Positions 3,520 through 61,448 of a stretch of 64,000 nt of DNA are shown here, piece after piece. The stretch comes from Sinohyriopsis cumingii (lineage: Eukaryota; Mollusca; Bivalvia; Unionida; Unionidae), in the NCBI GenBank assembly GCA_028554795.2, contig CM068838.1, positions 87,734,944-87,798,943 on the forward strand. Direction: 5' to 3'. Below the pieces are notes generated by a model. That model was not told where the DNA came from. It searched no databases and worked only from the letters and a program-made list of their open reading frames with translations. Both the position numbers and the translations under genes were made by a program. How positions within the stretch are numbered: position 1 is the stretch's first letter; each line of letters starts with the position of its first letter.

Positions 3520-3545
3520 CTAATGTATTATGATTGTGTAACATA
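3520..3545 (-). CDS. Probable terminal coding exon with stop
   Basis: After the strong acceptor TTGTTGTTCTTCTTCAG the phase-1 frame gives ICYTIIIH and TAG. The Cys at codon two sits where every T1 exon has its first Cys, so this may be a truncated T1 used as a C-terminus. No other acceptor in the region gives a longer in-phase frame. A cDNA could instead show another 3' end. Confidence 0.42.
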
Positions 3546-6500
3546 CTGAAGAAGAACAACAAACACCATATTCCTCAAGTATCATTCACATCAATGGTTC
3601 ATTTTTATCTATTCCCTTAAGAAAATATTATGAAATAAATGATACTCTACACAACTCCAAAAAGGAAGAAACAGTTGCTTTCATAAAATAATTTTTTTTC
3701 TGAAAATATTTTTGTCCATTCATTGTAAGTTATAAATTAGTATGACTTTGTTCTTCATAACTAATTCTAAACATACTGTCATTAGTGTTTACAAAGCAAT
3801 TGAGCAACATTAATACACATACACCTCCTCTCTCTCTCTTTCATGCACTGGACATGGTTCATGCTTCTATTGAATAGAAACGAAATTTTGTTAATATATA
3901 CAGTCCTTCTTAATAGATAACTTACTGCTGTTCCATCTCTTATCATCCGAGGGTTGATATGGACGGCCTGCACTGTTACATTGTGTACTCTGTATGTATT
4001 GGCTAATACCAAGTTTGTTGAAGAGGAGGTCAACTGTGTAATCTGCTAGTTGATCTGTGACTGAATCACCCACTGCTTGTAGTAATTTATTCAGGTTCAG
4101 TCCTGAAATACAGAATTGACATAGGAAATGAAGATTAATGTTCAATTTAAAGCACTCTGATACACACAAACAAGACTTGTCTATCATTGGCACCTTTCTA
4201 AAAAGTTTATATTACATGAAAGAAATCTGTTCTATGCCAAAAGAGAAATGCCATGATCAAAACAACATGAATATTTATAAGAAAACCATGTATTTACCAC
4301 CATATACTTACTTTTACTTTGAATAACTGTGAAATATTTGTTCAACTAAACACACTGAAGGGTGACAGCAAATGACAGCAGCCATATTTGAGCATTTGGA
4401 CAGTCCAAATTGAATGTTTGAACATGCCTACTCTGAAGATAAAAACATTGAAGGTTTGGGGCACTAAATTTACTAATTTTGATACAGTTCAAATCCAATA
4501 TAATAGGAAATGTATTCATGGAACAATGCCTGAAAATTGACCTAGATAAAAAATTTTTAACCAAGATGTGATAGATGGATATATGTATGGATTTATGTAA
4601 GTAACACAGTATGCCCCTACAATATTTTACTGAGAGATAAAATAAACAATGATGCAAAGATTTTCACTATTTCACCCATTTTCTATTCCCTTTCATGCAA
4701 TGTCAATACTTTCCTAACTGCTACCAACTGATGAAAAATTATTAATGCTAAATAAAATCTAAATACCTGGGAATTTATCACTGCAGAGAGGCTTTGGCAA
4801 CTGAAGGTTCTTTAAGACATTTAATTCAAATACACAGGATTGCTTCTCAAAGCAAACTGTCAGGTTCATGTTCAACAAAAAAAGTTTGTCAGCTTTCAAG
4901 TCAGTGATGGAATAACTGGAATTAATGGAGAAAAATATTCACATTTCACATTTTATTGCAGGAACAAAGAATTTTATTAAATGCATCATACATTATTGGG
5001 ATTGAAATTGTGTAGACTTCCAAAGATTTTCAGAAGTAATTTGGGTTGAGTGAAAAAAGGTAAATGATGGTTCTAAATCGGACAGTATAACCAGTTCATC
5101 TGAAATTAGATGTGCATTGGGTTAAAATTTCACTGATTAATTCCCTAAAATCCCTTAGCCTAAGAAGTAGTGTAACCACTGTAAATGAACAATATGTTAA
5201 ATTTGTTCAAATGAAATTGCACACAAAACCTAAGTGGAGATTTTTTCAACAATGGGAAAAAAGAGAAGAAATAGAAATGTGTTGCTAAAGAATCACTTCC
5301 TGACTAATGCTTGATTAAAACAAAATCAAGCAAACAAGATTTATCTGAATATTCATGAAATATTACATTAAAATTTTTGCAACTTGTTTTCAAAAATTAG
5401 CTTGCACTATTTACAAAATTATTTCATTAATAAATAAACATAGATTAATGAAGAATATTACCACTAATAATGTCTCTAAATGAGTGCACAAGTATGCCTA
5501 CTTACTCAATATTCGCTATCCCATTTAAACTATAATGATGCTTTGTTCCAAATTCATAGTTGAGCAGCTGGTAGTTGTGAAGCAAGTTCTCGATGCTAAT
5601 GTTCAGGAAATAATTGCATGCATCAAGTGCGATATTAAACGAGAATGATCGCAAATGCTGGCCCTTGAAATTGATGTCAACACAGCACTGGACTGACATG
5701 CAGGTATTCCCTAGTGTGCATGTGACATTATTTGGTAAGGTAGGCAGGGTCATTGGTAGTGTTCTGTTACACACTGAAATGTAAAACATTCAAGTATTCA
5801 ATAGACTGTCAAATATCACACTGAAAAATGCATGGCTTACAGAAGTAACAATAAGTTGATGAAACAATTCAGGAACGAAGAGAGCAATTGTCAAGGTTTA
5901 TAAGGGTACTTACTGACCATTGTGTCTGTTTCATCATTTAAATGTAAAACATTTCCAGTTATAAAGTCAATTTTGTATGTGTAATGCATAGAAATAAATG
6001 TGATCTTATAAACAAATGTAATCCAGTAATAAAAAAGTCACTGATCTCATTCTAAATGCAGTGCTGTTTATGTCCTTTACAAGATTTTTCTTCTATTATT
6101 TGATGTTAGTTAAATATCATTTGTACAGATTTGAGAGGTTATCATGCCTGGATTATTGGTTGAACTCTGTTAAGCAGTTTTTGAGTAGACATTAAAGTTT
6201 TTTCTATTTTTAGTAACTAAGGTCACACTTACTGGTCGATTCGCATCAACTGTAATAATCTAAAATGTCTACATTCCAAGATACTGTCAAGTCTGGTCAG
6301 ATCCCATTAAACAGTTTTGAAAAACAAGTTGTTTCAAGATTTTTCTATTTTTAGTAACAGTAATCATATATGACTGAAATCAGCAGCAGTTGTACAAACT
6401 TGAAAGCACTTGATGCCTAGACGCTTCTGTGAAATTCAGTCAAATTTTGTTGACAAAATTTTGAGAAGAAGGTATTTAAAGGTTTTTCTATGTTTAGTAA

Positions 6501-9500
6501 CGACCACTCTGGTGGCCTAGTGGTTAGAGCATCAACTGCAAATGTGGGAGGAGTGGGTTCGAACCCTGGTCCAGTCACAACGAAGACTTTCAAAAAATGT
6601 TACTAACAGCTACTTCGCTGGGCACTCAGCATTAGGAGGTTAGTGTTAGGACTGGTTAACCTGATGCCAGAATAATGTGATTGGGTGGAACCTCATGCTA
6701 TATGTCTGCATCATGATGCCCCAGTGCTAGACAACACTATAAAATGCCACACTGCAGATATCATAGCAACATGACTGATTTTTTTTAAAGCTAGATTAAA
6801 AATCCAAAGCATACATACAAACAGACACACACAAACACACGCACACACATCTCTCGTAATAGTAACCATATCTGATTACAGAAAGGTCCTCATGTTAAGA
6901 TGCTTTCAATCAAAATCTGTCATCTTCTAACAGTATACAGCTTTTTTATTTTTAGTAATTGTGGATGTGTGAGTGTGGATTAGCATCATTAGAATAGACC
7001 TGAAAGACCTTCCAGGATGTTTTCTGTCAATTTGATATAATTCTGTTCTCTGGCTTTTAAGTTCTTTAAAGATTTATGCTATTTTTAAGGGTTTATACTA
7101 TTTTAAGGATTTTACTATTTTAAGGATTTATACTATTTTAAGGATTTATGCTATTTTTAAGGATTTATGTTATTTTTAAGGATTTATGCTATTTTGAAGG
7201 ATTTATACTATTTTAAGTAACTGTGTCCAAATTTGTAAAATGTTTAAAGACATTCATGCCTGGATGATCTGTGTCACATTTGGTCAAAATTATTCTGGTG
7301 GTTTTTTAGAAATGTAAAAACAACTGTTGACAGTTGCACAATGTATGAAGGAGGCCATATCATCAGCATTAAAACCAGGTGAACTAGAATGATATATTAA
7401 TTTCTATGACTTATATTCTGGAATGCTGAAATATAATATAGTAACATTTAGTTCAATGCACAAAATATGTTTTACAGATAATACCCTTGTTGTACTACTG
7501 GTTAATGTACCTGAGGAAATTAAAATAACAAATGACACTTACAATTAACCCACTGTCCTGGCTGAGATACTTTACACTCCTCCAGGAGAAGGTATTTGGA
7601 AATTCCCAGTTTTTCCCATGTGGACTCAACAAGGTAATTAGTGAGCTGTCCTTTGGCATCAGTAATCAGTTGGTTTAAGATGGTACTTGTATCTGACAAG
7701 TAAAACAGAACAATGAAATACCAAAAAATTTTAATATGAAATTTTGAAAATCTCCATCCAGCAAATTTCACTTTGTTTACTTACAATATGACCTAAATAA
7801 AATGGTTTCCCTGAAGATCCTCATGATAAGAGTTAGTGTTACTTCCAAAATGGACAAAATCAATCAACTGGGTCATTATAAAGTTCGGATACAACATAAC
7901 CAATCAATCTTCACAAGTGAAATAAGAAAGGATGACTTCTGGTCTATTAAGAATTCAAAACTTTATTTCTTTATACATTCCTTTCTAAGCATCAATGATA
8001 AAATTTTGATCAAGTACATATGCGTATCTAAAGTTTGCCATAAAGTAGAAAGTCACTGCTACACATGAGGTCTGCATAATATTACATCAGACTAGTTCCC
8101 ACCCTTATACCAATATTTATTTTCTACATTTTTCCTGAGCTGGTACTTTTTATTGTGATGTTCAGTCATTTCTTATATGAGAAATGTGCCTGAAACTTTT
8201 CAATATAAATTATACAATTCCCAAAGATAAGCTTTATGAATTATTACACATCCTACTGCGCAACAAATGGGATATTTGTGGCATACATGTCCAACCTCTA
8301 CTTGATTCTAATTTCTAATAATCTGTAATATTTACAGTACCTGGTAACTTGAGCACATTTGCCCATTCACAGGGAGACTTTGGCAGTTTGGTGTTTCTCA
8401 TGACAGGAACAGAGATCTCACAGAAATCTGTCTCGAAACACAGACTGAGATTCAGACTAAAGAGCAAAAATCGGTCAAGGTCCTCTATCTTGTAACTGAA
8501 AAAAAGACAGAATCAATCAACAGTTTGATTGCTGGGGTCTGCAAGAGAACAATGAAGTTATTGTGAAAGCTATTTTCTTCCCAAACAATATATACTGTAC
8601 AGATTTATTTTATCATTTAATTTGAAAGTACATGTAATTCAAACTCGTTAAAAAAATATCAACATTCGCATGTATTTAGGCTTTAATAAAAATGTATATG
8701 ATGTGAAACATCAGAGCCTTACCAACTGTGCTCATGTTTAATATATAGCAAAATACCTGCAGAAACATTTTTCTGACAAAATTTTGACCCCCAAAAATGG
8801 GTAAATAAAATATTTTATCTTCAGTACATTACTCCCCCGTTATAATCCTGTGCACATGGGCCATTGTGTATACTACCACCTTATGACTGAACAGTCTTGT
8901 ACAGTGACAACCCTGCTATAACACAATGGTTGTGGTCCACCAAGTACCATCATGCGATGTAACATATTGTGAAAATCAAGACAAGTCAGTGAAGTTATTC
9001 CTTTTTGTCTATAAAAGGCATGTGGGAGGAAGGATGGTTGCAATGTAGGCAGCAGTGATGCAGCTAAAAAAATCTAATAATGCATATTGAACAAGAAATA
9101 GTGAAAACATTGATTACATATTTCATACTTAACTTTTTGCAGAGAACTATACATTGATGCATACATGTGTAAGAGAAATGGCAAATTAATACTGTAAGTA
9201 ATAATCGTGTTCTCATGAAATGATCTTACTGTATCCATAAAGGCAATTCTACCAAAATGTGTTCAAAGAATTATTTATAGAATGTTCTCTCCTAGGTTCC
9301 ATTCAAAATCTGAATACTAAACATTTCTTGTCAATAAACCTGCATTAACTAATGGAACACTAAAAAGTACTAATGGAACACTAAAAAGTACTAATGGAAC
9401 ACTAAAAAGTGTAATTATTTTAATATTCATGATGTGTAAGATGGGACTGATTACTGACCAACAATAAACTGCCTAAAATGCACATTGAGTTTATAATAAG

Positions 9501-11811: not shown

Positions 11812-11845
<34 letters not shown>

Positions 11846-50700: not shown

Positions 50701-52528
50701 CTCAGGGGTATCAGACTGCATCTCCTTCAATAACAGAAGGCATTCACTGTGGCCTTTATTTTCAACAGATCGGTGTACATAGACTACTCCTAAAGGGACC
50801 AAACCCTGTTCACTGGGAAAGAGGACAAGAGACTGGCACCCCACACAGTTATGCTGGTATCCATGCAAATCAAGATTTATGTCCCGGTAGATAACAAGAA
50901 ATCCCTACCATAAGTTCTGAGAGGTCAACACATTTGTTGAAAGAAGCTTTATGTACAGTAATTTGATGCTTTTATAATTTGGTCTACCTCACAAAGCTCT
51001 GGCCACCATGGAGGTAAGAGTATTACTATAGTGATAAGACCCTGAGAGTGAAGACCTTCATAATATTTGACTTTCTAAGAAAATAGAAAAGATTGTGAGG
51101 GCAAGTGTCAAGGCACAATCCTGAGAGGTGAAATCAAATGAAAAAGCTTGCAAATTATATACCCTAATGAGTGAAAAGCTGGGACTTTATAAAATTAGAA
51201 CAGGAATCCAAGGCAAGACCAGCAAGGAGCAAGATATTTCATATCTTTACAACAAGTTGCTCATCTTGGAGAGGAGAGGGGCTGTGTCTAGATGATTTGA
51301 TCTTGGGGACTAGGATGTAGCCCTGGAGAAGGAGTCATTGGCACTGGAAGTCTAGAAGTTACAGGAAGACCTATGAATGGGAAAATACAGGCATGCATGC
51401 ATCTGGGAGGTCTAAGATGACCACAGAGGATCCATCTCAGATGGCAGTAAGGGTACAGCACAAGGTCTCTATTATCAGCTTCTTTGCCTGAAAGTATAAT
51501 TTCAGTGCATGTGTTGCAAATGATCTCTACTGCCTTTTTTGTAGGAAAGCATGTATGGCAAAATTTTGAAATCTTCTTACCTGGACATAGTATAATCGCA
51601 GCAAGAACACAGCATCATTTTCTTGGGGAAAAATGAAAGCAAGGAGAGGAAATAGCCAGTTCTTCATTCCCTGAGGTGTGTTGTGCCTTGCTTTTGGCTT
51701 GGTGCTTTATGATACTAGTGGTAAGGTTATTGGAGTAAAGTGCTTTGTCCAAGAAAGCACCACAGTAGCTGACCCAGACAGGTTCAATGGTAGGCCCTTT
51801 TGATTGCAAGTCTGAGTCACCATGGTTCCCTATGGACTGGAGAAAGGTTCCTAAATCAGAAATGCTAAAGTTGGGTTCTTCCTATTTCTCTGGTCCCTCA
51901 TGAGAAATAAAGACAGGACTCTAGGTTGCTGGGCCTATTTCCTATTTCTCTAAGCAGCCATGGGATAGGAGTTTGGAAGACATAGGCACCAAAGACTAGG
52001 TATGTCAATACTGTATTCAGTACCAGTGACACAAATTCCAGGACTTAAGAGAATGAGATATGAGGTCATCTGACACCTGGAATCAAGTATTAGGTAACAG
52101 ATTACAGATGGACTATATTTTACTTCTACCAGATTCCAGAGACTACTGAATCCTAAATGTATACTGGTATTCTTTACATCTGAGGACAGCCTCTTTTAGC
52201 TAAATTTTCTTTTCATAGTATGTCAGGATTTTGTTATTTTTAGTACATCTGTATAACTTTCTCCAGTGTTTATGATAATCTGTAGGAAAAGAAACAACAG
52301 CAAGTTTGCAACACTATGAAGCAAACAAAAAAATGGGACAAAATCTGGTTCACTTATAACTGGAAGATTACAGGAAACATGATACAGTTGCAAAGATTAT
52401 GTTATTGTGGAATTTACAAATCATACCTACTTTATGATTATATTCTTTGTTAGCTCTAAGACTTCCTCTTTACCTGAAAGAAAAATTGAGGTGTGTGTAT
52501 AAGAAATTTTGATAATTTAAAACATGGA

Positions 52529-52590
<62 letters not shown>

Positions 52591-52757: not shown

Positions 52758-52851
<94 letters not shown>

Positions 52852-53372: not shown

Positions 53373-53416
<44 letters not shown>

Positions 53417-56400
53417 CTTTGTTCTAAATGAAAAAATCTAACCTCCCAATTGCAGCCATGTCAAAATCAGTCATTAATTTTGCACCAGACACAAAGTTTG
53501 CACTAATATCTGCCCAAGTAATTACATTTTTTATGATTTTATTGTCTTTATTATTATTGTTATTATTATTATTATTATAGTTCTTCTCAATTATCCAGAC
53601 ACACAATTATTGTAACATCTTTCCTTCAAAACCTCTATATATAACTGTACCAGGATATACTTTCTGGCATCAATCTCTCAGCCCACTTTGTCTTGTCATT
53701 TGTTCTTAACTTAGAATTAGGTCAAAACATACTGCCTGGTTCACAATGTTACAGACACAAGAAACCACTCGTCTATTATTCCTGCACAATTCTGTACTGT
53801 TATATCTCATGTTGTAAACTGCCCTAGTGATTCTAACATACAGGAGTCCAGAATTTTTTTGTAGATTGTGTGTTAAATGTTTGTTTATTATATATACATT
53901 TTTTTTCTTTCTCCCCTGATGAAGAGCTTGCTTAGCACAAAACACTGGGAAACCATTCTGAATTAAGACAAATTCCCAGTGGCTAATATGTATTTAACCA
54001 GTTTATTGAAAATATGGATTAAATATACATTTTCTACATGCATGCAATGTTTGTTTCTTATTATTTCCAAAGCACTACATAAAAACGGGAAAAATTCAAG
54101 TCTATGATGCAATCAATGTAAAGCATGTTACAAATTCCCATGGAAGACAGTCTGTTTCATACAGACAACTTACTTCCCATACCAAGAGTGAAGCACGCAT
54201 ATTACACTTTAACAGATAACATCTTACCCCAATTATAGCTGATGAGAAGTCTGGTGATGTTCCATCGCTCAAAACTGGCGGTGAGATAGAACTGACAGGC
54301 ATCAAGTTTCAAGTACGCACCAAATGCTTTAGTGTAGCCCAACTGGGGAATGGTGAAATCCACACAGACATCAAAACGCATGCAGTTCGATGAGATGAAG
54401 TAATAAAGATTCTTGAGGAGTTTTGGGTCACGGATGGGTGGCATGGTGAAGGTTCTATTTAACAACTTGCAGTCTGTTGCAATAAAATATCAAAGCTATA
54501 TCAGTAATATTAAAGCCATAACTTAGCCAACAATCAAAGCATTGCTTAAAAATGTGTGACTGGTGAGAGTGAAATTGTTGCAGAAATGAAATGTCTTAGC
54601 TCCAGAACAATTAAACCGACATACAAAGAAAATCCATCCAAGGATTGGGAAAGATAAGCTAATAAAAAACTTTAACCAAAACCTTACTGCATATTTTTCC
54701 ATGACTGTGATTTTAACCCGACAGTCATGGAAGCATGCATGTGTGTCAATAAATGAATTGGCATATGGCCTTTTCAATTATAAAAGAAATTCATCATATG
54801 CTATCAATTTCGCATTAGAAATGCCAATAATGTGAATTAGAGTAATGTTTCCAATAGATTTATAACTGTGGTGGCAAGTAGGTGCCAGCTAGCTCAGCCA
54901 AGTCACCATCCCTATTCCCCATGCCTGCTGTGTTTAAAAAATATTGGCTGATGCCAGCAACAGAAAATATCAGAGTAATTTATAATCTTGGACACAAATA
55001 AACGTTGCAAATATGTGTTGTGTGTTTTCTGAATTACAGTTCCTTTGGTTTTGTAAAACTTTCTGAAGCATACAAATTAGATAGTCAAGTCAGGAACAGA
55101 AATGTAATCTACTGGTATCCACCAATCCAGCCAATCAACCCTGAATTAGCCATATGTCAATGATATTAGGAAATAAAAAATAGTTTACAAATCTGAAAAT
55201 TGTAAAGATAAGAAATAATCTTATGATTCTAATGAATGCTATCATATTTTCAGTTAAATTCAGTTTGAAATGGAGTACTTGCTCAATGAGTATGAAGATT
55301 TGGCATATTCATTTACAACTACAGGTGTGTGTTGTGTGTGTGTGTGTGTGTGAAAAATAATAATAATATAATTTAGGTAAACAATGGTGAATCCAGTTGG
55401 GGATGCATTGGTAACAAACACAATGGTTTTATTGTTGATGGTTCAATAATTATTATATTAGTAATTATCAGCTTTAAAAGAATCAAATATCTTTTTCAGA
55501 AACAAGACAGAAGCAGTGATCAGATAATGTTTTTCTTCAAGAATGCAACAGATCTTGCAAGATTATTAAATCAAACTTGTTTATTTTGTCACCAAAGGTA
55601 TGCAGTACTTGAAAAGACTTTGGTTAAATTATCGCAAAATTTTATAAGCCATGTAACAATCTAACCCTACAATATTTCAGTCATATTTAACGGCAAAGCA
55701 ATTATCTGTACTATTACTATATCAAGACTAAACTCAAGGAAACAATCACTTCATTTTAAAGTGCTGAGTACCATGTAACTATACCTAGATCATCTGTGCG
55801 AAGTGCAGCCTCGAGTTCAGCTCTGGTTCCAGTGGTCAACAGACCTCTTTCCTGCAGAGTGGATTTCAGCGCCTGCAATGTCATATTCTCAGGGCGGGGA
55901 CATGGAGGCGTCCCTGCAAGCAGTTCCTGCAAAGATAAAAACTTATCTTGTGAATTTTATACACTAAAATGTTAATTATCCAGATGACAATTATGTGGAT
56001 TTTATTGCCAATGTCCCCTGAAATCAGTACTTATTACAATGTACATACCAATTAAACTAATATGCCGAAGATAACACCAACATAATACAGAGTATCTTAA
56101 AATTCATATAGATCATTTAGTCATTCAGAACCATTTCAGTCATAAGTCTCATTTTACCTTTAAATGGCAACTATTAACTTTATCTGGATCCTCATACATT
56201 TGAATTTGATTGGAAAGGACATTAATTACACTCACCAAGAAATACTTACAGTAAAATCAATGCCAGATCATGTGGATATTTTTAGATAAGGTTAACCTAA
56301 AAGTGTGATTCAGTATAAATCAGATTGAATGTAATGTCCTGTAATGTCACAATGAAAGTAGTGCACTTTAAAAACAAATATTTACTATCCTGTTATTTGT

Positions 56401-59400
56401 TATGATAGATATGACATTCTCATTACTTTACCAAATTTAGGGCCTAGCTGCCATTGTAAAAGTCAAAAAATTTTTCTGGAGTTTTTTTATGACTTTTAAG
56501 GTGTAGAACATTCAGTATTCACGACTGAATAGGATTTGCTTTAAAAAAAACTATTTTTTAACTTTTAGAATAACAATTAAATTTGATTTCAATCTGACTA
56601 AATGTACATACATGATCTGTATGACTTTCACTATAACAGAAATAAAAAATAAACACACATTATAATTTAATTCAGTTATATTTCCTATAGTATTAGAAAT
56701 AAGCACATTATCTTTCTTAAGAAAAATAAATGTAATTAGGAGAAAGAGAGAAATACAAAGAAAATAAGTTTATTACTACAATTAATAATGGCTAAGTGAG
56801 TAATTTCTCATACAGAAATCCTAAGTTATTCAATTAAACAAATACTCATAAATGTCAGAACAAAATCATTCACTCATATGGGGAAACTGACAAATCTTAC
56901 CTTGAGAGGATATATTAAGTTCAGAAATATTAGCACTCAATATTTTAGATGCATTTACAGATTATTCAGTAAATTAATTACTTACAGAAGTAAAATAGCA
57001 TATAAGATGTGAAAGGGTTGATTTTCACAAGGCAGTTCTTGTACAGAAATGTCTAGCTGGAATTGCACCAGCGTATCTTCAGGATTTATTTCCACCTCAT
57101 TCAACACATTACCATCTAAGACCAACATCACATACAAACCTTTATTCAACAAAACAATGATGGCAGAGTAATCAAATTAAAACGGTCTAAGAACACCAGC
57201 ATGCTGTTAACTGATTACCTTATTGTTATAATTTGGAGAGTTTAAGATCTAATGCAGAATATTTTTGAGATGTTATAATAAAGGGATTAGGGAGTAGTCC
57301 ATATTGGCTTCTAAGACGATCATAAAAATCAACTGACCTTTGGCACAGGAGAGATAAAATGAACAGACCAACCATACAACCCCCTGCCCATAATCGAGTA
57401 AACACTTTTATTTGCATTGTTTACATGGTTTGTATTGTTCAAGATGTTTTAACATTAAAATTTACTTAATTACTGATACATACAACTGACAGTTTCAGTA
57501 CTTAATTACTGTTACATGCAACATACGACTTCAGTACTTAATTATTGAAATGTACAACATACAGCTTCAATACTTAATTACTGAATGTACAACATACAGC
57601 TTCAGTACTTAATTACTGAATGTACAACATATGGCTTCAGTACTTAATTACTGAAATGTACAATATATGGCTTCAGTACTTAATTACTGAAATGTACAAT
57701 ATATGGTTTCAGTACTTAATTACTGAAATGTACAATATATGGCTTCAGTACTTATTTACCGATACATAAAATATATGGCTTCAGTACTCAATTACTGATC
57801 CATACAACATACAGTTATCAGACACATCTAATACACATATTTCATTTCTCAGTTCAAATTTTTTAACCAAAATTTGATCATCCAAACTACCTATTATCCA
57901 AATGAAATCTGTCCCCCAACCCACAACCCACCCACCTTATGGGTCCAGATCATGAAAGCTGTAATGTACTAAGTTAAAGTAATTTAGAGATTTTCATTAG
58001 TAACTATGCAATTTAGTTTCTCATATTAGCTGATCTAATGATTACTGATTATTCACTCAATGAAAATTCAACATATTCATATCCATCTAAATGAATTACA
58101 AAAAATGACAAAGGAAATTAAAACTGAACAACTTTTTTGCAGGGGGACCCGAGTGGCCGAGTGGTCTAAAGTGCTCACCATTACAGATCACTGCCATCTC
58201 ACCTCTGTCTGCGTGGGTTCAAGTCTTGGGTTCAACCTATGTGGGTATGTGAGAAAGCTTGCCAGTAGCTTCTTGTGGGTCGGTGGTTCTTTCCCGGGTT
58301 TTCCGGGGTTCTTCCTCCACCATTAATACTGGCTGCCATGTATAGCCTATTTTGTGCTGAAAAATAGCGTTAAACCCCACAACAACAACAACAACAACTT
58401 TTTGCAGTGAAATCTATAATGTAAGCTAAGATCCACTTTGTTGATAATAGAGCTTAGAGATCTCATGTAAGTTTGAAGAAAATCCTCCAATATTTTTTGA
58501 AGACAAAATGACTTCATATTCTACATAGGGTCTATTTTGTTTGTTCTACTGATTACTCCTAACAAACTGCATAGATCCAGATCTTCTGGTGTATTATATG
58601 CCAGATGATCTAGGTATGTACTGTGTGCTGTTTGCAGTTGGATTCAACTTAAAAACAAGTATATACAGCATGTGTCTCTCGAGAAAGAACAGTATTATAA
58701 AGACCACCATATGCTAAATAATGCAAATATCAATGTAGTGGAAAAGTTTAGAATTTCATATACAAAAGCTACGGTTCTAAAACCAACCTCATACTTAACT
58801 TTAACTCAATATTAGGATTTTTGATGGGCTAATGCAAATCACCAATCATTGTGATGTCAGACATTTTAGTTGAATTTGAGTTTGTGCACAAAAATGTTTT
58901 ATAATCTTTGGGACAGGTCTGTTGAATTCTTACAATGGTGCAATTAAAGTACAATACAAACCTCAGGTAGTCCCAGCTCACTCAGTATCGTACTTGCTGC
59001 TACACTAGCAACTTCACCTGCCAATTTTTTACCAGTCTCCTTCAGTTTCTCCATCATATTATCTTTACTCAACATTTCTGTCCAGTTTACTGAAAAAAAG
59101 TTCCACAGACCTCAGTTCATCTCAACAGATAAAGAATAGCTGCATGTTTTATAATATCTAAATCATTCTTCCTCACGTGTCCTCCGCTTTTAACTTTCTT
59201 TCTTCTCAATAAATGAAGGTACATTTTCAAATATTGGAGAATTGTTCAATAATAAATGATAGCACATGGTTTGTTGCAAAGATAATATCAATAATAAATG
59301 ATAGCACATCGCTTGTTGCAAAGATAATATCAATAATAAATGATAGCACATCGCTTGTTGCAAAGATTATATCAATAATAAATGATATCACATGGCTTGC

Positions 59401-61448
59401 TGCAAAGATTATATCAATAATAAATGATAGCACATCACTTGTTGCAAAGATAATATCAATAATAAATGATAGCACATGGCTTGTTGCAAAGATTATATAA
59501 ATAATAAATGATAGCACATCGCTTGTTGCAAAGATTATATCAATAATAAATCATAGCACATGGCTTGTTGCAAAGATTATAGCAATAATAAATCATAGCA
59601 CATGGCTTGTTGCAAAGATTATATCAATAATAAATCATAGCACATCGCTTGTTGCAAAGATAATATCAATAATAAATGATAGCACATCGCTTGTTGCAAA
59701 GATTATATCAATAATAAATCATAGCACATGGCTTGTTGCAAAGATTATATCAATAATAAATCATAGCACATGGCTTGTTGCAAAGATTATATCAATAATA
59801 AATCATAGCACATGGCTTGTTGTAAAGATTATATCAATAATAAATCATAGCACATGGCTTGTTGCAAAGATAATATCAATAATAAATGATAGCACATGGC
59901 TTGTTGCAAAGATTATATCAATAATAAATCATATCACATGGCTTGTTGCAAAGATTATATCAATAATAAATGATAGCACATGGCTTGTTGCAAAGATTAT
60001 ATCAATAATAAATGATATTACATGGCTTGTTGCAAAGATTATATCACTCCAAATAAGTTCATAATAAAACCAAACATACCATATACTACCTAACCAACAA
60101 CCCCTGTGGGGGTGTTACATTTTCTAAAGGAGTTTTTTTTTTAGCACAATAAGTAAAGCTGAAGTGGTTCCTTTGATGTACTCTTATAATGACCAACATG
60201 TATATCTGCCACTGAATTCAGTCATTGTAAATATTAAAATCATCAATCTATTAATATATTTTCCCACTCTGCAGCTGGTTGAAGTAGGACTAGAAAGTCT
60301 TTGAACTTGCCACCCATCTAAAGTCATCGAACTTGCCACCCAGCTAAAGTCATTGAACTTGACACCCAGGAAAAGTCTCTGAACTTGCCACCCAGCTAAA
60401 GTCTCTGAACTTGCCAAGCAGCTAAAGTGATTAAACTTGCCGCCCAGCTAAAGTCTCTGAACTTGCCACCAAGCTAAAGTTGTTGAAATTGAAGCCCAGC
60501 TAAAGTCACTGAGCTTGCCACCCAGCTAAAGTCATTGAACCTGCCACCTACCTAAAGTCTTTGAACTTGCCAAGCAGCTAAAGTCGCTGAACTTGCCATC
60601 CAGCTAAAGTCTCTGAACCTGCCATTCCAACTAATGTCTTTGAACTTGCCACCCAGATAGTTTTTGAGCTTGCCACCCAGCTAAAGTCACTGAACTTGCC
60701 ACCCAGCTTAAGTCATTGAACTTGCCACCCAGATAAAATCATTAACTTGCCACCCAGCTAAAGTCACTGAACTTGCCACCCAGCTAAAGTCACTGAACTT
60801 GCCATCCAGCTAAAGTCTTTGAACTTGCCAATCCAGCTAATGTATTTGATCTTGCCATCAAGTGATTGTGTCATGCTTAACACAACACATGTGCCTGTAA
60901 CTTTAGTAATTTATACATTGGTATATACAATGTAACATTATGATTAACTGAGACTACTGGAGCAGTCTGCCAAAATCATGGTTTGCCTGGAGACAGATAT
61001 TAAAAAGCATAGATCTTACAATGCACCTAGTAAATTTTCTGCTCTTAAAAAACGGGGTAGGTGTAAAATAGAGTGGAGTGTGGGTGTTAATTAGGAATTA
61101 TACAGTATTCCAATTAAACCTTATCTTTTCATTATCTTTCAATATTATTAGAATATTTTCACTTTCTTTAACTTTTTATATACATATTACTAATATACAT
61201 TTCATATACAAATTTGACTATTGTGATTACAATACAGCCTACAAGGGGACATTTCTCAAACTTAAAAATTACCTTTTGGCCAGGCCAGGGTTCCATTTGG
61301 GTAGCAAATAGGAAGAGGCAGAATGGCTTCATCCAGTATCTTGATGTCTACAATGCAGTTACTGGTATCTGCAATCTCACAAACCCCCACCCCAAAAGTA
61401 AGTACTGACTCTCCACCATCCTCAAGTGTCTTCTTTGTGATGGAGTAC
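3520..61448 (-). CDS. Large tandem-repeat cysteine-rich (probably extracellular) protein, 28 exons, 5'-partial
   Basis: I joined 28 minus-strand exons, listed individually below, that keep one open frame of 1,354 codons plus TAG. Every junction used is AG acceptor / GT donor and every phase agrees. The product has seven units (window residues about 1-148 partial, 149-341, 342-561, 562-760, 761-959, 960-1148, 1149-1346) and an eight-residue tail. Each unit carries a C-x5-C-x4-CC block, an LP-x-LP lead-in, a T3 segment with a P-x-P-x-C ending, and an LG-I/L-x-x-YL block before a final Cys. Glycosylation sequons (NVT, NRT, NIT, NWT, NMT, NFT) and paired cysteines suggest a secreted or membrane-exposed protein; no membrane segment is seen within the reconstructed frame. 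I recall similar uncharacterised repeat proteins in bivalve genomes but cannot name a family or function. Signal peptide and upstream exons lie outside the window or were not found. Exon structure is strong; biological role is unknown. Confidence 0.88.
3926..4102 (-). CDS. Exon, unit 7 T4 segment
   Basis: 177 nt, acceptor CTGTATTTCAG, donor AGC A|GTAAGT. It encodes GLNLNKLLQAVGDSVTDQL, then LLFNKLGISQYIQSTQC and RPYQPSDDKRWNS. Phase 1 both sides. No further T1 exon is found to its left, so this is probably the last unit. Confidence 0.88.
4767..4915 (-). CDS. Exon, unit 7 T3 segment
   Basis: 149 nt, acceptor TTAATTCCAG, donor CCA G|GTATTT. It encodes YSITDLKADKLFLLNMNLTV, CFEKQSCVFEL and ends LPKPLCSDKFPG. 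Sequon NLT. Confidence 0.9.
5506..5773 (-). CDS. Exon, unit 7 T1 and T2 fused
   Basis: 268 nt, acceptor TTTACATTTCAG, donor ATT GA|GTAAGT. It encodes LCNRTLPMTLPTLPNNVT, CTLGNTCMSVQCCVDI (full core), LDACNYFLNIS, LLNYEFG and then HHYSLNGIANIE, which corresponds to the T2 microexon. No intron separates T1 from T2 here, unlike units 2-6. Phase 1 in, 2 out. Confidence 0.92.
6500..6848 (+). mobile_element. tRNA-derived SINE, family A copy 1
   Basis: The head has a pol III A box (TGGCCTAGTGGTTAGAGC) and a B box (GGTTCGAACCC). A body of about 250 bp follows, with TGCCCCAGTGCTAGACA and ACACTATAAAATGCCACACT, and the element ends in a (CA)-rich tail. Two further copies (9943-10275 minus, 38240-38570 plus) share the whole length, showing a dispersed family. 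Confidence 0.85.
7070..7218. repeat. 20-22 bp minisatellite
   Basis: About seven copies of AAGGATTTATACTATTTT with T/A and length variation. Confidence 0.9.
7543..7692 (-). CDS. Exon, unit 6 T4 segment
   Basis: 150 nt, acceptor TTTACTTGTCAG, donor AAT T|GTAAGT. It encodes DTSTILNQLITDAKGQLTNY, then EKLGISKYLLLEEC and QPGQWVN. The FSL-x-x-W start seen in other T4 exons is absent. Confidence 0.88.
8341..8495 (-). CDS. Exon, unit 6 T3 segment
   Basis: 155 nt, acceptor TTTTTTTCAG, donor CCA G|GTACTG. It encodes YKIEDLDRFLLFSLNLSL, CFETDFCEISV and ends LPKSPCEWANVLKLP. Sequon NLS. Phase 2 in, 1 out. Confidence 0.9.
9349..9411. repeat. 21-bp tandem repeat, three copies
   Basis: Unit CTAATGGAACACTAAAAAGT plus one base; the copies are almost identical. 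Confidence 0.92.
9558..9640 (+). mobile_element. Fragment of a Tigger-like element end
   Basis: TA followed by CACCTCTCCCTCGATAACTC matches the terminal repeat of the element at 47778 with few differences, and GGGGTCCAAAAACATGG resembles its inner flank. The other end was not found. Confidence 0.55.
9943..10275 (-). mobile_element. tRNA-derived SINE, family A copy 2
   Basis: Reverse-strand copy: head near 10275 (A-box CCTAGTGGTTAGAGTGTCC, degraded B box), the same body, and a (CA)n tail seen as GT repeats at 9944-9968. It is more diverged than the copy at 38.2 kb. Confidence 0.8.
11440..11690 (+). mobile_element. tRNA-derived SINE, family B copy 1, with target-site duplication
   Basis: The head carries GTGGCCGAGTGGTCTAAAGC (A box of Ser/Leu tRNA type) and GGTTCGAGCCT (B box). 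A conserved middle (GCTTGCCAGTAGCTTCTCG ... CCATCATTAATACTGGCCGC) and a (CAA)n tail follow. ACAGGAACAGTG flanks it at 11428-11439 and 11687-11698. The middle resembles the shared central domain of mollusc SINEs (my recollection, not checked). The 71-codon open frame across it is not a gene. Confidence 0.9.
11760..11802 (-). CDS. Microexon, unit 6 T2
   Basis: 43 nt, acceptor TTCTTTTTCAG, donor GCT GA|GTAAGT. It encodes AVSNSFWLFGIFRAD with neighbours. Length and phase match the other T2 microexons although the sequence is diverged. Confidence 0.7.
11816..11841. repeat. (TA)n microsatellite
   Basis: About 13 TA dinucleotides, 14 bp upstream of the unit 6 T2 microexon in the direction of transcription, just beyond its polypyrimidine tract. 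Confidence 0.95.
12247..12465 (-). CDS. Exon, unit 6 T1 cysteine-rich segment
   Basis: 219 nt, acceptor ATATATTTTCAG, donor TTA G|GTATTT. It encodes ECSFVNTSNLPKLDHRMS, CYIPKYCTAINCCLRV (full core), IDLNPCNNTFDI and ends LLDYGSL. Sequons NTS and NNT. The WG normally at the donor is YGSL. Confidence 0.88.
12921..13091 (-). CDS. Exon, unit 5 T4 segment
   Basis: 171 nt, acceptor ATGTGTTGCAG, donor AAT G|GTAAGT. It encodes EFSLTSYMDKMGWGDALSSA, then ELLDMLGLTQNILLNPPC and ends APYSAVEPYWTN. Phase 1 both sides. Confidence 0.9.
13781..13944 (-). CDS. Exon, unit 5 T3 segment
   Basis: 164 nt, acceptor TTTTACTCAACAG, donor GGC G|GTACTG. It encodes YSIGKLDDSKMFVVNLDFNV, then CLEKGQPCQLSL, and ends IPQPLCNTNVSFVPG. 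Sequon NVS. Confidence 0.9.
15744..15792 (-). CDS. Microexon, unit 5 T2
   Basis: 49 nt, acceptor TTTTTTACAG, donor TTC AG|GTACAG. It encodes GQKETLYLDSGNMIYFS with neighbours; the longest T2 microexon here. Phase 1 in, 2 out. Confidence 0.78.
16020..16347. repeat. 41-bp minisatellite, eight copies
   Basis: The unit contains ATCATGGTTGATTCTGGAGA and TAGCTGACAAGGCACTAAT. Copies alternate TAGATC and TAAATC, suggesting growth by an 82-bp dimer. Confidence 0.95.
17322..17534 (-). CDS. Exon, unit 5 T1 cysteine-rich segment
   Basis: 213 nt, acceptor TTTATTTTAATAG, donor TGG G|GTAAGA. It encodes ECFYKKFTLPTLPSGVV, CSVSETCTSIDCCVTV (full core), LDFCNFEIS and ends SYNWG. Phase 1 both sides. Confidence 0.92.
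17620..18985. repeat. Degenerate minisatellite, about 34-38 bp unit
   Basis: About 35 loosely conserved units of CTCAAACTCTAATACACACC plus TGGCCCTGTACTGT fill most of the intron between unit 5 T1 and unit 4 T4. Weak open frames in it (18271-19065) come from the repeat and are not genes. Confidence 0.9.
19369..19533 (-). CDS. Exon, unit 4 T4 segment
   Basis: 165 nt, acceptor ATGATTTTCAG, donor AAT G|GTATAT. It encodes NFSLTSWMKNHALDTMTDAA, then FLLEQLGIDTYLLKPPC and GAVNGWKN. It matches unit 3 T4 closely across the LGI-x-x-YLLKP block. Confidence 0.92.
20655..20790 (-). mobile_element. tRNA-like SINE relic
   Basis: On the minus strand, GTAGTTTAGTTGGCAGAGC is followed by TTGTAATCC and GGGTTCAA, the order of a Thr-type tRNA A box, anticodon arm and B box. 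No clear tail or duplications; called a relic rather than a tRNA gene because the acceptor arms do not pair. Confidence 0.5.
21100..22590. repeat. Degenerate tandem copies of a roughly 130-bp dispersed repeat
   Basis: Phrases AAGCTCAGCCAAT, CACCTCATTAATATGCATGG, CTCATAATCATACTCA and CCAAGTTTGATCAAAAA recur in the same order several times. Divergence is high and unit boundaries are approximate. Confidence 0.6.
22595..23382. repeat. Roughly 32-bp minisatellite
   Basis: About 24 copies of ATAGATTCACTCATTATTGT followed by ACTCATTACCATGC. The array is embedded in a copy of the flanking dispersed repeat. Confidence 0.95.
23491..23607. repeat. 54-bp tandem duplication
   Basis: Two copies of GGCTACATGACACATAATGC ... 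GTGCAAGGTTATACCAT and the start of a third. Confidence 0.9.
23728..24075. repeat. Roughly 50-65 bp minisatellite, about six copies
   Basis: Unit contains GAAGTCCATGTATTTGTACC, TTCTAACACTCTCCTCAGAG and TAAAAC. Some copies carry an extra CAAGAATCATG insertion; one is shortened. An 81-codon frame on the minus strand is an artefact of it. Confidence 0.92.
24488..24654 (-). CDS. Exon, unit 4 T3 segment
   Basis: 167 nt, acceptor CTCTCAG, donor AAG A|GTAAGT. It encodes FSIRKLEAEKRFLIDLDILA, then CFEANGNCMIQL, and ends VPQLICDLSASLSIYK. Two Cys spaced as C-x6-C, plus the final one. Confidence 0.9.
25549..25591 (-). CDS. Microexon, unit 4 T2
   Basis: 43 nt, acceptor TTTCTGCAG, donor TTT GA|GTAAGT. 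It encodes GKKERFTILDFLTFE with neighbours. Phase 1 in, 2 out. Confidence 0.82.
25853..25908. repeat. (TA)n microsatellite
   Basis: About 28 TA dinucleotides in the intron between unit 4 T1 and T2. Confidence 0.97.
26120..26341 (-). CDS. Exon, unit 4 T1 cysteine-rich segment
   Basis: 222 nt, acceptor TATAATTGCAG, donor TGG G|GTGAGG. It encodes ECQLGFIDLPPIPANLPIN, CHIPESCTALDCCIF (full core), NIDMCSYKMSG and ends LLLYNDWG. Phase 1 both sides. Confidence 0.92.
26610..28887. repeat. 61-bp minisatellite, about 38 copies, with higher-order structure
   Basis: The unit reads AGGCCTTAGACTTTACAATC, CCTCTATAAATCTGCC, TAAAAAAGCCAAACATAC, TTGCAAT. Recurrent variants are ATATATTTGCAAT, CCCTATATAAA and a short form lacking about 10 bases (AACATACAGCCTTAG at about 26866, 28070, 28306, 28540). 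It lies in the intron between unit 4 T1 and unit 3 T4. No coding content. Confidence 0.97.
28890..30189. other. Intron stretch without recognised genes
   Basis: Part of the intron between unit 4 T1 and unit 3 T4. I see no exon, RNA gene or clear mobile element. Confidence 0.6.
30190..30375 (-). CDS. Exon, unit 3 T4 segment
   Basis: 186 nt, acceptor GTTTTGCAG, donor AAT G|GTAGGT; phase 1 both sides. It encodes NFSLGNWVSEMVANKT, then a Gln/Thr-rich helix, LLLDQLGITKYLLKPQC and YPYSPSVNGWNN. This is the best match to the T4 consensus. Sequons NFS and NKT. Confidence 0.92.
30376..33284. other. Intron between unit 3 T4 and T3
   Basis: It contains a TA tract (listed) and an 89-codon minus-strand frame with a hydrophobic stretch near 30800-30930 that is not joined to the gene in phase. 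Nothing else recognised. Confidence 0.6.
31062..31123. repeat. (TA)n microsatellite
   Basis: About 30 TA dinucleotides with one GTA interruption. Confidence 0.97.
33285..33460 (-). CDS. Exon, unit 3 T3 segment
   Basis: 176 nt, acceptor TTTCTGTAATAG, donor AAA A|GTAAGT. It encodes FTVNKMANNLGFIVDLKLLI, then CIPDGDKKPMCIPSEDG and ends IPACNARAYESFK. It is longer between its cysteines than units 5-7. Confidence 0.88.
34838..34883 (-). CDS. Microexon, unit 3 T2
   Basis: 46 nt, acceptor TTTCATTGTAAG, donor ATC AA|GTAAGT. It encodes GEEHILSLADGAIQIK when joined to its neighbours. The size, phase pattern (1 in, 2 out) and acidic start match the other T2 exons. Confidence 0.78.
35668..35727. repeat. 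Palindromic (ATA)n/(TAT)n microsatellite
   Basis: About ten ATA/TAA triplets run directly into about ten TTA triplets with a single turn near 35697, so each strand can fold on itself. Confidence 0.95.
36034..36328. repeat. 58-bp minisatellite, five copies
   Basis: Unit ACTATTGTGGATTAAATATT, GTGGACTAAATTTATTC, TTTACATAGAACTAAAATGC. Copies are almost identical, implying recent expansion. Confidence 0.96.
37020..37205. mobile_element. Possible small DNA-transposon-derived repeat
   Basis: The motif CTGCTATGAGCGACC and variants (GCTATGAGCGACCACCTG, GTTATGAGCAACCACCTG, GCTATGACCGACTGC) recur four times within 185 bp. Such repeated GCTAT-GCGACC ends are typical of Tigger-like miniature elements, but boundaries are unclear. 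Confidence 0.35.
37767..38018 (-). CDS. Exon, unit 3 T1 cysteine-rich segment
   Basis: 252 nt, acceptor TTCATTCACAG, donor TGG G|GTAAGT. It encodes GCPWNLTSFLTKLPNSL, then CQMPDNCFGLQCCLNF (the full C-x5-C-x4-CC core), FKLDPCDF, and ends TLDWG. Sequon WNLT. Phase 1 on both sides. Confidence 0.9.
38240..38570 (+). mobile_element. tRNA-derived SINE, family A copy 3
   Basis: Starts CCGCTCCAGTGGCCTAGTGG, B box GGTTCAACCCC, then the family body and a (CA)n tail at about 38555-38566. It sits 222 bp upstream (in plus coordinates) of the unit 3 T1 exon, inside the intron. Confidence 0.85.
39206..39251 (-). CDS. Exon, unit 2 T4 second part
   Basis: 46 nt, acceptor TTTTCTTTGCAG, donor AAG G|GTATGT, phase 0 in and 1 out. 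It encodes NYFSTGQCVLPAPPK, continuing LGIK with NYF where other units have KYLL or TYLL. It is shorter than the equivalent tails and lacks the W-x-N ending. It lies about 5.4 kb from its partner. Confidence 0.78.
39389..40146. repeat. 39-bp minisatellite, about 19 copies, open in frame
   Basis: The unit is GGAGTCCAAGGTTAATATTC plus CCTCATCCAACTAGTAATT. Because 39 is a multiple of three, a 232-codon plus-strand frame (39359-40057) of a 13-residue repeat (SNWSPRLIFPHPT) stays open. It is in an intron, has no start context and occurs only as this array, so I do not call it a gene. Confidence 0.95.
40150..43005. other. Intron sequence, unassigned, probably old mobile-element debris
   Basis: Lies between the two parts of unit 2 T4. 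Base composition is richer in G and C than the surrounding introns, and short phrases (CCAGTGATGTGACAGTCACT, CCCAGTGCTG) repeat weakly. No coding frame. Confidence 0.4.
43010..43322. repeat. Roughly 35-bp minisatellite, about nine copies
   Basis: Unit CACTTTCTGTTTCATTGACG then TTACTCTTAACAGT with point changes and one shortened copy. Confidence 0.95.
44285..44360. repeat. Orphan inverted unit of the 39-bp minisatellite
   Basis: The reverse complement contains AGATTAATATTCTCTCACCC and AATTAGAAATTGG, matching the array at 39.4-40.1 kb in the same intron but on the opposite strand. Confidence 0.6.
44619..44707 (-). CDS. Exon, unit 2 T4 first part
   Basis: 89 nt, phase 1 in and phase 0 out (ATT AAG|GTAAGC). 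It encodes AISFEGLKNAIGGSLTEEA, then FDLLLEALGIK, the helical block before the LGI motif. It is split from the rest of T4 at the same place as unit 1. Confidence 0.85.
44938..45092 (-). CDS. Exon, unit 2 T3 segment
   Basis: 155 nt (phase 2 in, 1 out). Acceptor TTTGCCTTTCAG, donor CCA G|GTAAGC. It encodes FSIGKNDDKKVFVVTASLKF, then CLGQDSCIW, and ends VPIPVCNENFTLPG. It closely resembles unit 5 T3 (YSIGKLDDSKMFVV). Sequon NFT. Confidence 0.9.
45093..47777. other. Intron sequence left of the Tigger element
   Basis: Part of the 7.3-kb intron between unit 2 T3 and T2. Apart from the 38-bp array there are overlapping short plus-strand frames at 46828-47319 without recognisable domains. Confidence 0.45.
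46060..46250. repeat. 38-bp minisatellite, five copies
   Basis: Unit GGTCCAAGTTAAGGCAGCCT then GTTGTGCTACTGATATA. Confidence 0.95.
47778..49966 (+). mobile_element. Pogo/Tigger-like DNA transposon, internally deleted
   Basis: Terminal inverted repeats of about 24 bp (47778-47801 and 49943-49966; core CTCCCTCGATAACTCGCGC) differ at one position near the tip and are bounded by TA on both sides, as in the Tc1/mariner superfamily. Extra copies of the CGATAACTCGC motif lie just inside each end. The interior keeps only the C-terminal part of a transposase, so the element could not move by itself. Confidence 0.85.
48701..49309 (+). pseudogene. C-terminal remnant of a pogo/Tigger-type transposase
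   Basis: An open stretch of about 200 codons has no good ATG, and an in-frame TGA lies just upstream (48677-48679). Its end, DIAIRWLETQN followed by MQLRNLRDFARRQRNQ and TKKIN, is the pattern at the C-terminus of Tigger/jerky-type proteins. The frame continues after a single TGA as FFKK, so the usual PCNA-binding-like ending (K-I-x-x-FF) is cut by that stop. The centromere-protein-B-like DNA-binding domain and DDE catalytic domain are absent. The acidic middle is typical of linkers in this family. Confidence 0.72.
49967..52430. other. Intron sequence right of the Tigger element
   Basis: Short frames on both strands (for example 50040-50345 and 50691-50894) have no recognised domain. Composition resembles 40.2-42.2 kb and 45.2-47.5 kb, suggesting related mobile-element debris. 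Confidence 0.4.
52431..52473 (-). CDS. Microexon, unit 2 T2
   Basis: 43 nt, AG|GT AAA GAG start after CTTTCAG and AA|GTAGGT donor. It encodes GKEEVLELTKNIIIK, similar in length and phase (1 in, 2 out) to the other T2 microexons. A donor four bases further left (AG|GTATGA) would be in the wrong phase and create a stop, so GTAGGT was chosen. The exon is nearly 7.3 kb from the next one. Confidence 0.68.
52532..52585. repeat. (TA)n microsatellite
   Basis: About 27 TA dinucleotides, 58 bp upstream of the unit 2 T2 microexon in the direction of transcription. Confidence 0.97.
52765..52848. repeat. (TA)n microsatellite
   Basis: About 41 uninterrupted TA dinucleotides; the second TA tract within 300 bp. 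Confidence 0.97.
53378..53414. repeat. (TC)n plus short (TA)n microsatellite
   Basis: About 14 TC dinucleotides followed by five TA. Confidence 0.95.
53550..53578. repeat. (TTA)n microsatellite
   Basis: About nine triplets with one G interruption. Confidence 0.9.
54228..54473 (-). CDS. Exon, unit 2 T1 cysteine-rich segment
   Basis: 246 nt, phase 1 in (acceptor TTGCAACAG) and phase 1 out (TGG G|GTAAGA). It encodes DCKLLNRTFTMPPI at the start, NCMRFDVCVDF in the core, LKLDACQFYL and ends WNITRLLISYNWG. The usual C-x5-C-x4-CC core is degraded: the first Cys and one of the CC pair are missing. Sequons LNRT and WNIT are present. Confidence 0.9.
55324..55352. repeat. (TG)n microsatellite
   Basis: About 13 TG dinucleotides with one interruption. 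Confidence 0.9.
55785..55926 (-). CDS. Exon, unit 1 T4 second part carrying a SAP-like motif
   Basis: 142 nt, phase 0 in, phase 1 out (CTA G|GTATAG), acceptor TTATCTTTGCAG. It opens ELLAGTPPCPRPEN, matching the YLL-x-x-P-C part of T4, then has NMTLQALKSTLQERGLLTTG followed by TRAELEAALRTDD. The pattern L-x-x-x-L-x-x-x-GL-x-x-x-G-x-x-x-E-L is that of a SAP helix-extended loop-helix. SAP domains are usually nuclear nucleic-acid binders, so in a protein with N-glycosylation sequons this may be a convergent fold or have another role. No other unit in the window has it. Confidence 0.82.
57440..57815. repeat. Roughly 38-bp minisatellite, about nine copies
   Basis: Unit GCTTCAGTACTTAATTACTG then AAATGTACAATATATG. 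Each unit holds an inverted repeat CAGTA/TACTG with a 6-base spacer. Confidence 0.94.
58143..58396 (+). mobile_element. tRNA-derived SINE, family B copy 2, with target-site duplication
   Basis: Same family as 11440-11690 along the whole length, ending in a (CAA)n tail. The flanks AACAACTTTTTTGCAG (58127-58142) and AACAACTTTTTGCAG (58393-58407) differ by one T, consistent with retrotransposition by a LINE partner. Confidence 0.9.
58962..59089 (-). CDS. Exon, unit 1 T4 segment, first part
   Basis: 128 nt, starting phase 1 after a clean TTTTTTTCAG acceptor and ending phase 0 at GAG|GTTTGT. It encodes VNWTEMLSKDN, then a Lys/Ala-rich helix, and ends SELGLPE, which aligns with the LGI-x-x block of other units. 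The NWT sequon is conserved in type. Unlike units 3-7 the T4 segment is interrupted here by a phase-0 intron, shared with unit 2. Confidence 0.83.
59240..60048. repeat. 42-bp minisatellite, about 19 copies
   Basis: Unit AATAATAAATGATAGCACAT, GGCTTGTTGCAAAGAT, TATATC. The unit is a multiple of three, so frames stay open on both strands (59213-59500 plus, 59227-59517 minus); neither is a gene. Confidence 0.97.
60292..60862. repeat. Roughly 27-bp minisatellite, about 21 copies
   Basis: Unit AAGTCTCTGAACTTGCCACC plus CAGCTA, moderately diverged. Confidence 0.95.
61273..61448 (-). CDS. Exon, unit 1 T3 segment
   Basis: First exon recognised in the window (176 nt; one base completes a codon, 58 codons, one base over). 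It begins YSITKKTLEDGG and ends with the P-x-P-x-C block (LPLPICYPNGT) and WPK. Two Cys precede the final one. The donor is GTAATT; the acceptor follows TTGAAG. No convincing T2 or T1 exon for this unit was found in 61449-64000, so they lie further upstream or are diverged. Confidence 0.82.

Follow-up and report, generated by a model that had tools for sequence, protein, structure and literature searches.

A predicted giant cysteine-rich repeat protein of Sinohyriopsis cumingii built from symmetric exon cassettes, a candidate for an undescribed extracellular domain family

Fibrillins, giant mucins, and fibropellins are built as long arrays of symmetric, disulfide-rich units (EGF, TB, VWD, or similar domains), and a basic convertase site near the C terminus is a feature of egg-coat proteins with a ZP module. 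According to PMC3567151, abalone VERL exceeds 1,000 kDa and contains about 22 tandem repeats of about 150 amino acids; positive selection is reported there for its two N-terminal repeats, and its internal repeats are called homogenized, with 88% identity to repeat 2. The cuttlefish egg case proteins (SepECP) are described in PMC4500399 as proteins of 71 and 74 kDa without repeated sequences. Here, we analyze a stretch of 64,000 nucleotides (the window) from the bivalve Sinohyriopsis cumingii, positions 87734944-87798943 of contig CM068838.1 (C15) in an assembly of 2.9 Gb. Judging by its exons and their paralogues, the window carries the 5′ portion of a gene from a family of about ten giant members, which encode arrays of a ten-cysteine unit for which we found no counterpart in the domain libraries searched.

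A four-exon cassette on the minus strand

Self-comparison of the six-frame open reading frames (ORFs) of the window brought out three classes of exon, each present repeatedly on the minus strand. We named them CC (C-x5-C-x4-CC), PXC (…C…C…P-x-P-x-C), and LGI (…LGI-x-x-YL…C…W). Since CC exons end in phase 1 and PXC exons start in phase 2, a short exon, T4, is required between them, so that the order of transcription and phases is LGI (1-1), CC (1-1), T4 (1-2), PXC (2-1). Candidates for T4 were chosen by phase, splice sites, and motif, and the second halves of split LGI exons were sought likewise. The resulting 27 minus-strand exons, from 61448 to 3926, join into 3,979 nt (1,326 codons) without a single stop, with AG/GT borders and consistent phases throughout. 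The window shows six complete units, preceded by a single PXC and followed by a single LGI (7 LGI, 7 PXC, 6 CC, and 6 T4).

A sequence-only reading of the same stretch had proposed a repeated four-exon cassette without naming a strand, and the borders, matching phases, and open frame confirm that it is real. The upper limit that it had set, 61448, coincides with the start of the first exon in our model. Its lower limit, 3520, has to be moved: we found no exon in 3520-3925, the end of LGI7 being at 3926; with the six-exon profile, CC candidates in 1-3925 reach an E value of 5.3 at best, and those that fit the phase lack the motif. The 28 exons and 1,354 codons that it had counted, arranged as seven complete four-exon units, are replaced by the numbers given above. 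The junction phases 1-2-1-1 that it had assigned to every unit hold for units 3-5 but not for the other three: a phase-0 intron interrupts the LGI exon of units 1 and 2, and unit 6 lacks the CC/T4 intron.

The exon assignments were assessed in two ways. In a leave-one-out test, each of the 20 long exons was withheld, and a profile made from the remaining ones was run against 2,863 ORFs. Eighteen were recovered as the top non-training ORF (E 1.8e-18 to 0.0054; CC 6/6, LGI 6/7, PXC 6/7), and the best E values of reversed-sequence controls were 0.056 to 1.4. LGI1a (E 0.71) and PXC3 (E 2.6) were not recovered. The second test used profiles of 28 CC, 26 LGI, and 27 PXC exons from a paralogous gene on contig C13 (the C13 paralogue), themselves originally found by window-seeded profiles, against 3,598 ORFs. 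With these, 17 of the 20 exons were found at E ≤ 0.0025; no other ORF scored below 0.15, and the best reversed control reached 0.11. The three missed exons, LGI2a (E 0.39) and LGI1a and PXC3 (neither among the 32 matches listed), all come from the two diverged N-terminal units.

The individual exons are listed below in order of transcription, all on the minus strand and with the class phases given above unless stated otherwise; paired E values refer to the leave-one-out and the C13 profile, in this order. PXC1 (61273..61448; 2.7e-4, 0.0025) is the 3′ part of a unit whose remaining exons lie upstream of the window; the CC exon of this preceding unit is in ORF L037:4733-4960. Unit 1 starts with LGI1a (58962..59089, phase 1 to 0), weak by profile and placed by phase, splice sites, and order, and LGI1b (55845..55926, phase 0 to 1), a short and tentative exon with fitting splice sites and phase and one cysteine. 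They are followed by CC1 (54228..54473; 2.3e-10, 3.5e-10), where two usual cysteines are missing together, the short, tentative T4_1 (52431..52473; rank 1 of 65 candidates, low score), and PXC2 (44938..45092; 6e-9, 5.2e-7). Unit 2 is made of LGI2a (44619..44707, phase 1 to 0; 0.0054, 0.39), LGI2b (39206..39251, phase 0 to 1; short and tentative, chosen on the same grounds as LGI1b and likewise with one cysteine), CC2 (37767..38018; 4e-9, 2.2e-8), the tentative T4_2 (34838..34883; rank 5 of 24), and PXC3 (33285..33460), missed by both profiles. By eye, PXC3 resembles an exon of the C13 paralogue (L030:5165-5467) that precedes the first typical unit there on the 5′ side. Unit 3 has its LGI in one piece (LGI3, 30190..30375; 3.4e-18, 1.5e-16), followed by CC3 (26120..26341; 6.2e-14, 1.5e-20), the short T4_3 (25549..25591; rank 1 of 10), and PXC4 (24488..24654; 3e-13, 2.6e-16). 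Unit 4 comprises LGI4 (19369..19533; 4.3e-13, 5.5e-15), CC4 (17322..17534; 1.9e-17, 4e-22), the tentative T4_4 (15744..15792; rank 2 of 35), and PXC5 (13781..13944; 3.1e-15, 4.2e-15). Unit 5 consists of LGI5 (12921..13091; 3.5e-9 with both profiles), CC5 (12247..12465; 2.8e-11, 1.3e-19), the short T4_5 (11760..11802; rank 1 of 22, score far above the others), and PXC6 (8341..8495; 1.1e-6, 1.4e-15). In unit 6, LGI6 (7543..7692; 1.1e-4, 0.0011) precedes CC6 and T4_6 as one exon (5506..5773, phase 1 to 2; 1.8e-18, 9.1e-20) and PXC7 (4767..4915; 5e-15, 2.2e-16). LGI7 (3926..4102; 2.2e-10, 1.4e-10) is the last exon found in the window; the next CC exon was found at C15:87733120-87733308, about 1.6 kb to the left of it.

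The seven short exons (T4_1 to T4_5, LGI1b, and LGI2b) rest on splice sites and phase and are less certain than the long ones. The T4 ranks come from a crude motif score, the motif being built from 15 sequences, three of which probably read into introns. For T4_2, a rival candidate at 37234-37276 had the higher motif score (12.2 versus -6.6) but a poor donor; 34838-34883 was kept for its strong donor and a match by eye when a gap is allowed. A plus-strand reading was rejected, the strong exons being on the minus strand and the big plus-strand self-match groups being minisatellites. Rfam and tRNA scans of the window found nothing.

Introns and flanks are rich in minisatellites with units of 61, 42, 39, 34, 31, and 26 bp (at 26478-28843, 59120-60175, 39289-40134, 22561-23434, 62445-63098, and 60266-60889). 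Two pairs of dispersed repeats, 11439-11673 with 58142-58376 (87% identical) and 6593-6778 with 38333-38518 (80% identical), have the look of short interspersed elements. Elsewhere on C15, a minisatellite at L009:1002-1838 and L011:294-1464 is derived from a CC exon end and its splice donor; it codes ...NLFDYTWGKFLRMITV... repeatedly and leaves an uninterrupted frame of up to 278 codons through the expected intron.

The gene family and its repeat unit

Three CC queries of the genome gave 150, 150, and 118 places, at most 150 candidates, the best ones, being scored per query. Together with exons from fetched DNA, they yield at least 209 CC exons, all those found being inside ten same-strand intervals on contigs C2, C13, and C15; two of the intervals (g9 and g10) were partly drawn from the CC matches themselves. 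For CC0, the N-terminal CC exon upstream of the window, nine intervals each hold a single strong match (42-100%) at their 5′ end; the weakest of these (E 1.1e-11) stands well above the next match (E 1.1e-7). Directly 5′ of CC0 is a SAP-like exon (C15:87804346-87804576, minus strand; L037:5403-5633) that has exactly nine matches, beside the same nine CC0 matches (weakest E 0.0036). Its similarity to SAP (PF02037; E 2.2e-4) amounts to 21.2 bits, below the Pfam cut-off of 23.9, and would be unusual for an extracellular protein; the 14 typical units that we aligned (see below) have no SAP match at E ≤ 1. At the opposite end, the last exon found of the C13 gene array matches nine places and no more, one at the 3′ end of each of nine intervals (weakest E 5.1e-4). 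All nine of these C-terminal exons contain a basic cluster, which in eight is a furin-like R-x-K/R-R and in the ninth RKR.

Both end markers are present in eight of the ten clusters, one cluster having the N-terminal and one the C-terminal marker alone. Because the N- and C-terminal exons are shared across clusters, we conclude from the sequence comparison that the window is the 5′ part of one (g1) of about ten giant paralogous genes. In g1, the N- and C-terminal marker exons are about 307 kb apart, and at least 24 CC exons were found; g4, the most fully read gene, has at least 32, and in g6 three were found. LGI3 has 52 matches in the genome, the best of those outside C15 being toward the 5′ ends of other clusters. 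With a single CC query, three pattern matches in viral contigs and 57 in bacterial and archaeal contigs were obtained, none of which was confirmed. Approximate queries for two cephalopod proteins speak against a cephalopod genome: reflectin gave three weak matches, two of them with internal stops, that turned out to be tandem repeats, and the best opsin match was 47%.

Some members depart from the common plan. At C13:52010808-52130628 there is a short member with both end markers and three CC exons found, compared with 32 in its sister gene. The interval C2:83378000-83703633 has N-terminal markers and no C-terminal match, and C2:64878844-64975000 has a C-terminal match and no N-terminal ones; either may be a broken gene, a gene with a divergent end, or an assembly fault.

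The unit, LGI-CC-T4-PXC, is about 190 amino acids long, T4 accounting for 13-15 of them. It has ten cysteines because CC, LGI, and PXC hold six, one, and three. In the C13 paralogue, these numbers are found in 26/26 CC, 25/25 LGI, and 24/26 PXC exons, one of the two PXC exceptions being a stray partial copy. Save for this copy, CC, PXC, and LGI succeed one another in this order through 25 uninterrupted rounds in 170 kb. The stray exon lies behind a full copy at C13:30303951-30304034 and is perhaps a relic of exon duplication. Acceptors are at the expected phase in 23/25 LGI, 25/26 CC, and 21/26 PXC exons, and LGI donors in 25/25. In an alignment of 14 units from two genes, seven cysteines are invariant and three more are at least 90% conserved. 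In the C13 paralogue, about 12 of 26 units have CC and T4 in a single exon, as in unit 6 of the window, and in others an intron inside a glycine codon separates the two, which indicates one homologous intron present or absent among copies. Disulfide pairing could not be derived from joint loss of cysteines: a single unit (window unit 1) loses two together, which is too few, and the attempt was dropped.

The C13 paralogue also bears on what the sequence-only reading had said of the cassette. Phase-1 introns bound it there as in the window, as the acceptor and donor phases given above show. Among the sequence blocks named, C-x5-C-x4-CC stands (5/6 CC exons in the window and 26/26 in the C13 paralogue), P-x-P-x-C is weaker (4/7 and 6/26 PXC exons), and LGI-x-x-YL is strict in just 3/7 window units, with LG and then I, L, or V found in 13/25 LGI exons of the C13 paralogue. 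The suggestion that symmetric cassettes allow units to be added or removed by unequal crossing-over is borne out as to the phase-1 bounds, and the different numbers of CC exons between genes fit gain or loss of whole units at some time. Recent unequal crossing-over is not indicated: pairs of window units share 21-38% identity, and the array is therefore old.

The unit had been taken for an undescribed domain, and this agrees with our searches as far as they extend: a strong match to an established family was looked for in Pfam, NCBIfam, and PDB sequences, and no credible one was found. For the window protein, the best Pfam match was COG6_C (E 0.054; 12.7 bits versus a cut-off of 26.4). The alignment of 14 units gave a best Pfam E of 0.11, with five families each seen in one of the 14 members and none above its cut-off, and a best NCBIfam E of 0.0013, an implausible match of one member to a DNA polymerase III subunit. 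The best hit of the PDB-sequence profile search, an NADase chain (E 0.012), was taken as chance, and phmmer with unit 4 returned a best E of 0.15. Among the open-access papers listed in our literature searches, we recognized none on such a protein. Similar sequences may exist as uncharacterised mollusc proteins.

Proposed role and alternative readings

The near-invariant, even set of cysteines, the 19 N-glycosylation sequons of the window protein, and the lack of any strongly hydrophobic stretch (highest 19-residue Kyte-Doolittle mean 1.37) fit an extracellular protein. The sequence-only reading had likewise called the protein giant, cysteine-rich, and perhaps extracellular, which our analysis supports. 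We consider the chances about even that the window gene, as one of the family of about ten giant genes, encodes the precursor of a secreted extracellular-matrix polymer. A more far-reaching proposal, which we hold with slightly less than even confidence, is that LGI-CC-T4-PXC is an undescribed extracellular domain family, found in this genome just as arrays in about ten mostly giant genes, with constant caps at both termini, of which the C-terminal one is cleaved, and that it represents a new class of secreted bead-on-a-string polymer, perhaps corresponding, among invertebrates, to a giant egg-coat or matrix protein.

Under the matrix-polymer reading, the protein would be secreted, and the ten cysteines of each unit would pair as five disulfides to form a rigid bead. 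LGI helices would join the beads, giving a long filament with a mass of some 500-700 kDa, from which a furin-type protease could cut off the C-terminal tail after synthesis, permitting assembly of an extracellular matrix, for which mucus, egg coat, byssus, periostracum, or similar are candidates. If this is true, about ten genes of 0.1-0.5 Mb each would serve secreted proteins of up to about 30 units, the domain, absent from the curated libraries searched, would be a new one to name, and the product would be a natural polymer of a new sort whose processing site is conserved. At least 209 homologous exons would then allow one to trace how introns were gained and lost, how unit number changed, and how paralogues underwent conversion.

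Several points weigh against the matrix-polymer reading. The predicted model of the CC+T4 exon is middling (pLDDT 70.8, pTM 0.53), with CC modelled as strands, and has no significant Foldseek match; that of the LGI exon is poor (pLDDT 54.9), with a helix at low confidence, and Foldseek returned no chain for it. Cluster g9 is without a C-terminal match and g10 without an N-terminal one. The tail beyond the basic site, followed for one exon, was found in three C13 genes and not in C2 or C15. The gene models derive from genomic sequence, and both ends of the gene are outside the window. A matrix role is guessed from the composition and architecture of the protein, and adhesive, immune, or lipid-binding roles may fit equally.

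A more specific possibility is a VERL-like egg-coat protein, i.e., a giant array of beads packed in egg-envelope fibres and opened by a sperm protein, with diverging N-terminal units. It bears on this that units 1 and 2 are on average the most diverged of the window (21-29% identical to the others) and that conservation along the gene is uneven, as identities to further tandem genes on C15 run from 65% to 99%. PXC2 is 65% and 67% identical to its tandem copies and LGI3 82%, versus 99% and 97% for CC4 in two further genes. The C-terminally conserved basic site and the tandem CC exons of g4 and g1 also suit an egg-coat protein, and VERL is likewise giant, with tandem repeats and N-terminal repeats reported to be under positive selection (PMC3567151). 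On the other hand, tandem copies share 90% identity in CC0 and 75-79% in the SAP-like exon; the N terminus is therefore not fast-diverging throughout. The low identity of the units also contrasts with the repeats of VERL that PMC3567151 calls homogenized. Finally, Pfam gave no ZP match at E ≤ 1 in the window protein, the 14 units, or the C-terminal exon of g4, the far C termini being unread. We regard an egg-coat protein of this kind as unlikely.

The tandem copies of CC4 allow a closer look at a single exon. The three copies (L001-L003 on C15; exon at 1501-1713) differ at few codons, with synonymous/nonsynonymous counts of 3/1, 8/2, and 5/1, i.e., in the direction of purifying selection as far as one exon indicates. 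The flanks of the window copy align to the other two for 350-390 bases around the exon (84-89%), those two aligning to each other over most of 3 kb (about 89-92%). This could reflect exon-sized gene conversion, and conversion of single exons is accordingly possible in these genes. Orthology of units by position between g1 and g4 was tried and given up: unit 3 alone is clear (score 491 versus 352 for the next), and units 4-6 are not.

We find it similarly improbable that the genes encode a family of immune or adhesive surface receptors, whose diverged units would bind different partners and which would be shed at the basic site. About ten paralogues, three of them in tandem on C15, the divergence of the units, and the conserved basic site near the C terminus are what such a family might show, but the window part has no strongly hydrophobic stretch, and no known recognition or signalling domain was found, the tail being hardly read. 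Even less probable, in our view, is a large secreted carrier in which each unit would form a small beta-barrel-like pocket for a lipid or another ligand. That the exons are left over from a defunct gene or were produced by our way of choosing them, as seven short exons picked by phase and splice sites might suggest, is very improbable given the stop-free joined frame, the recovery of exons with held-out and paralogue profiles, the intact order and cysteine set over 25 paralogue units, and the mostly synonymous changes in CC4.

Comparison with known systems

The proposed matrix polymer shares with fibrillins, giant mucins, and fibropellins the build from symmetric disulfide-rich units in long arrays. 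It differs from them in its units, to which the EGF, TB, and VWD-type domains of those proteins have no match (Pfam, E ≤ 1). A basic site of the type known from ZP-module proteins, R-x-K/R-R, is present in 8/9 C-terminal exons, where cleavage is predicted from the sequence. Like the SepECP proteins, which PMC4500399 presents as cysteine-rich, secreted, and formerly without useful database annotation, the window protein is rich in cysteine and probably secreted; the SepECP motif CX2GX2CCXGCCX8-9C has no match in the window protein or in the CC, LGI, and PXC exons of the C13 paralogue. From VERL it differs in that the repeats described in PMC3567151 are ZP-N repeats of about 150 amino acids, whereas the units here are of about 190 amino acids, have ten cysteines, and are not homogenised; membership of the ZP family is not supported by a model match. 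By analogy, VERL would nevertheless be the nearest functional parallel, as both appear to be very large secreted proteins (secretion being predicted in our case) with tens of tandem units and odd units at the N terminus.
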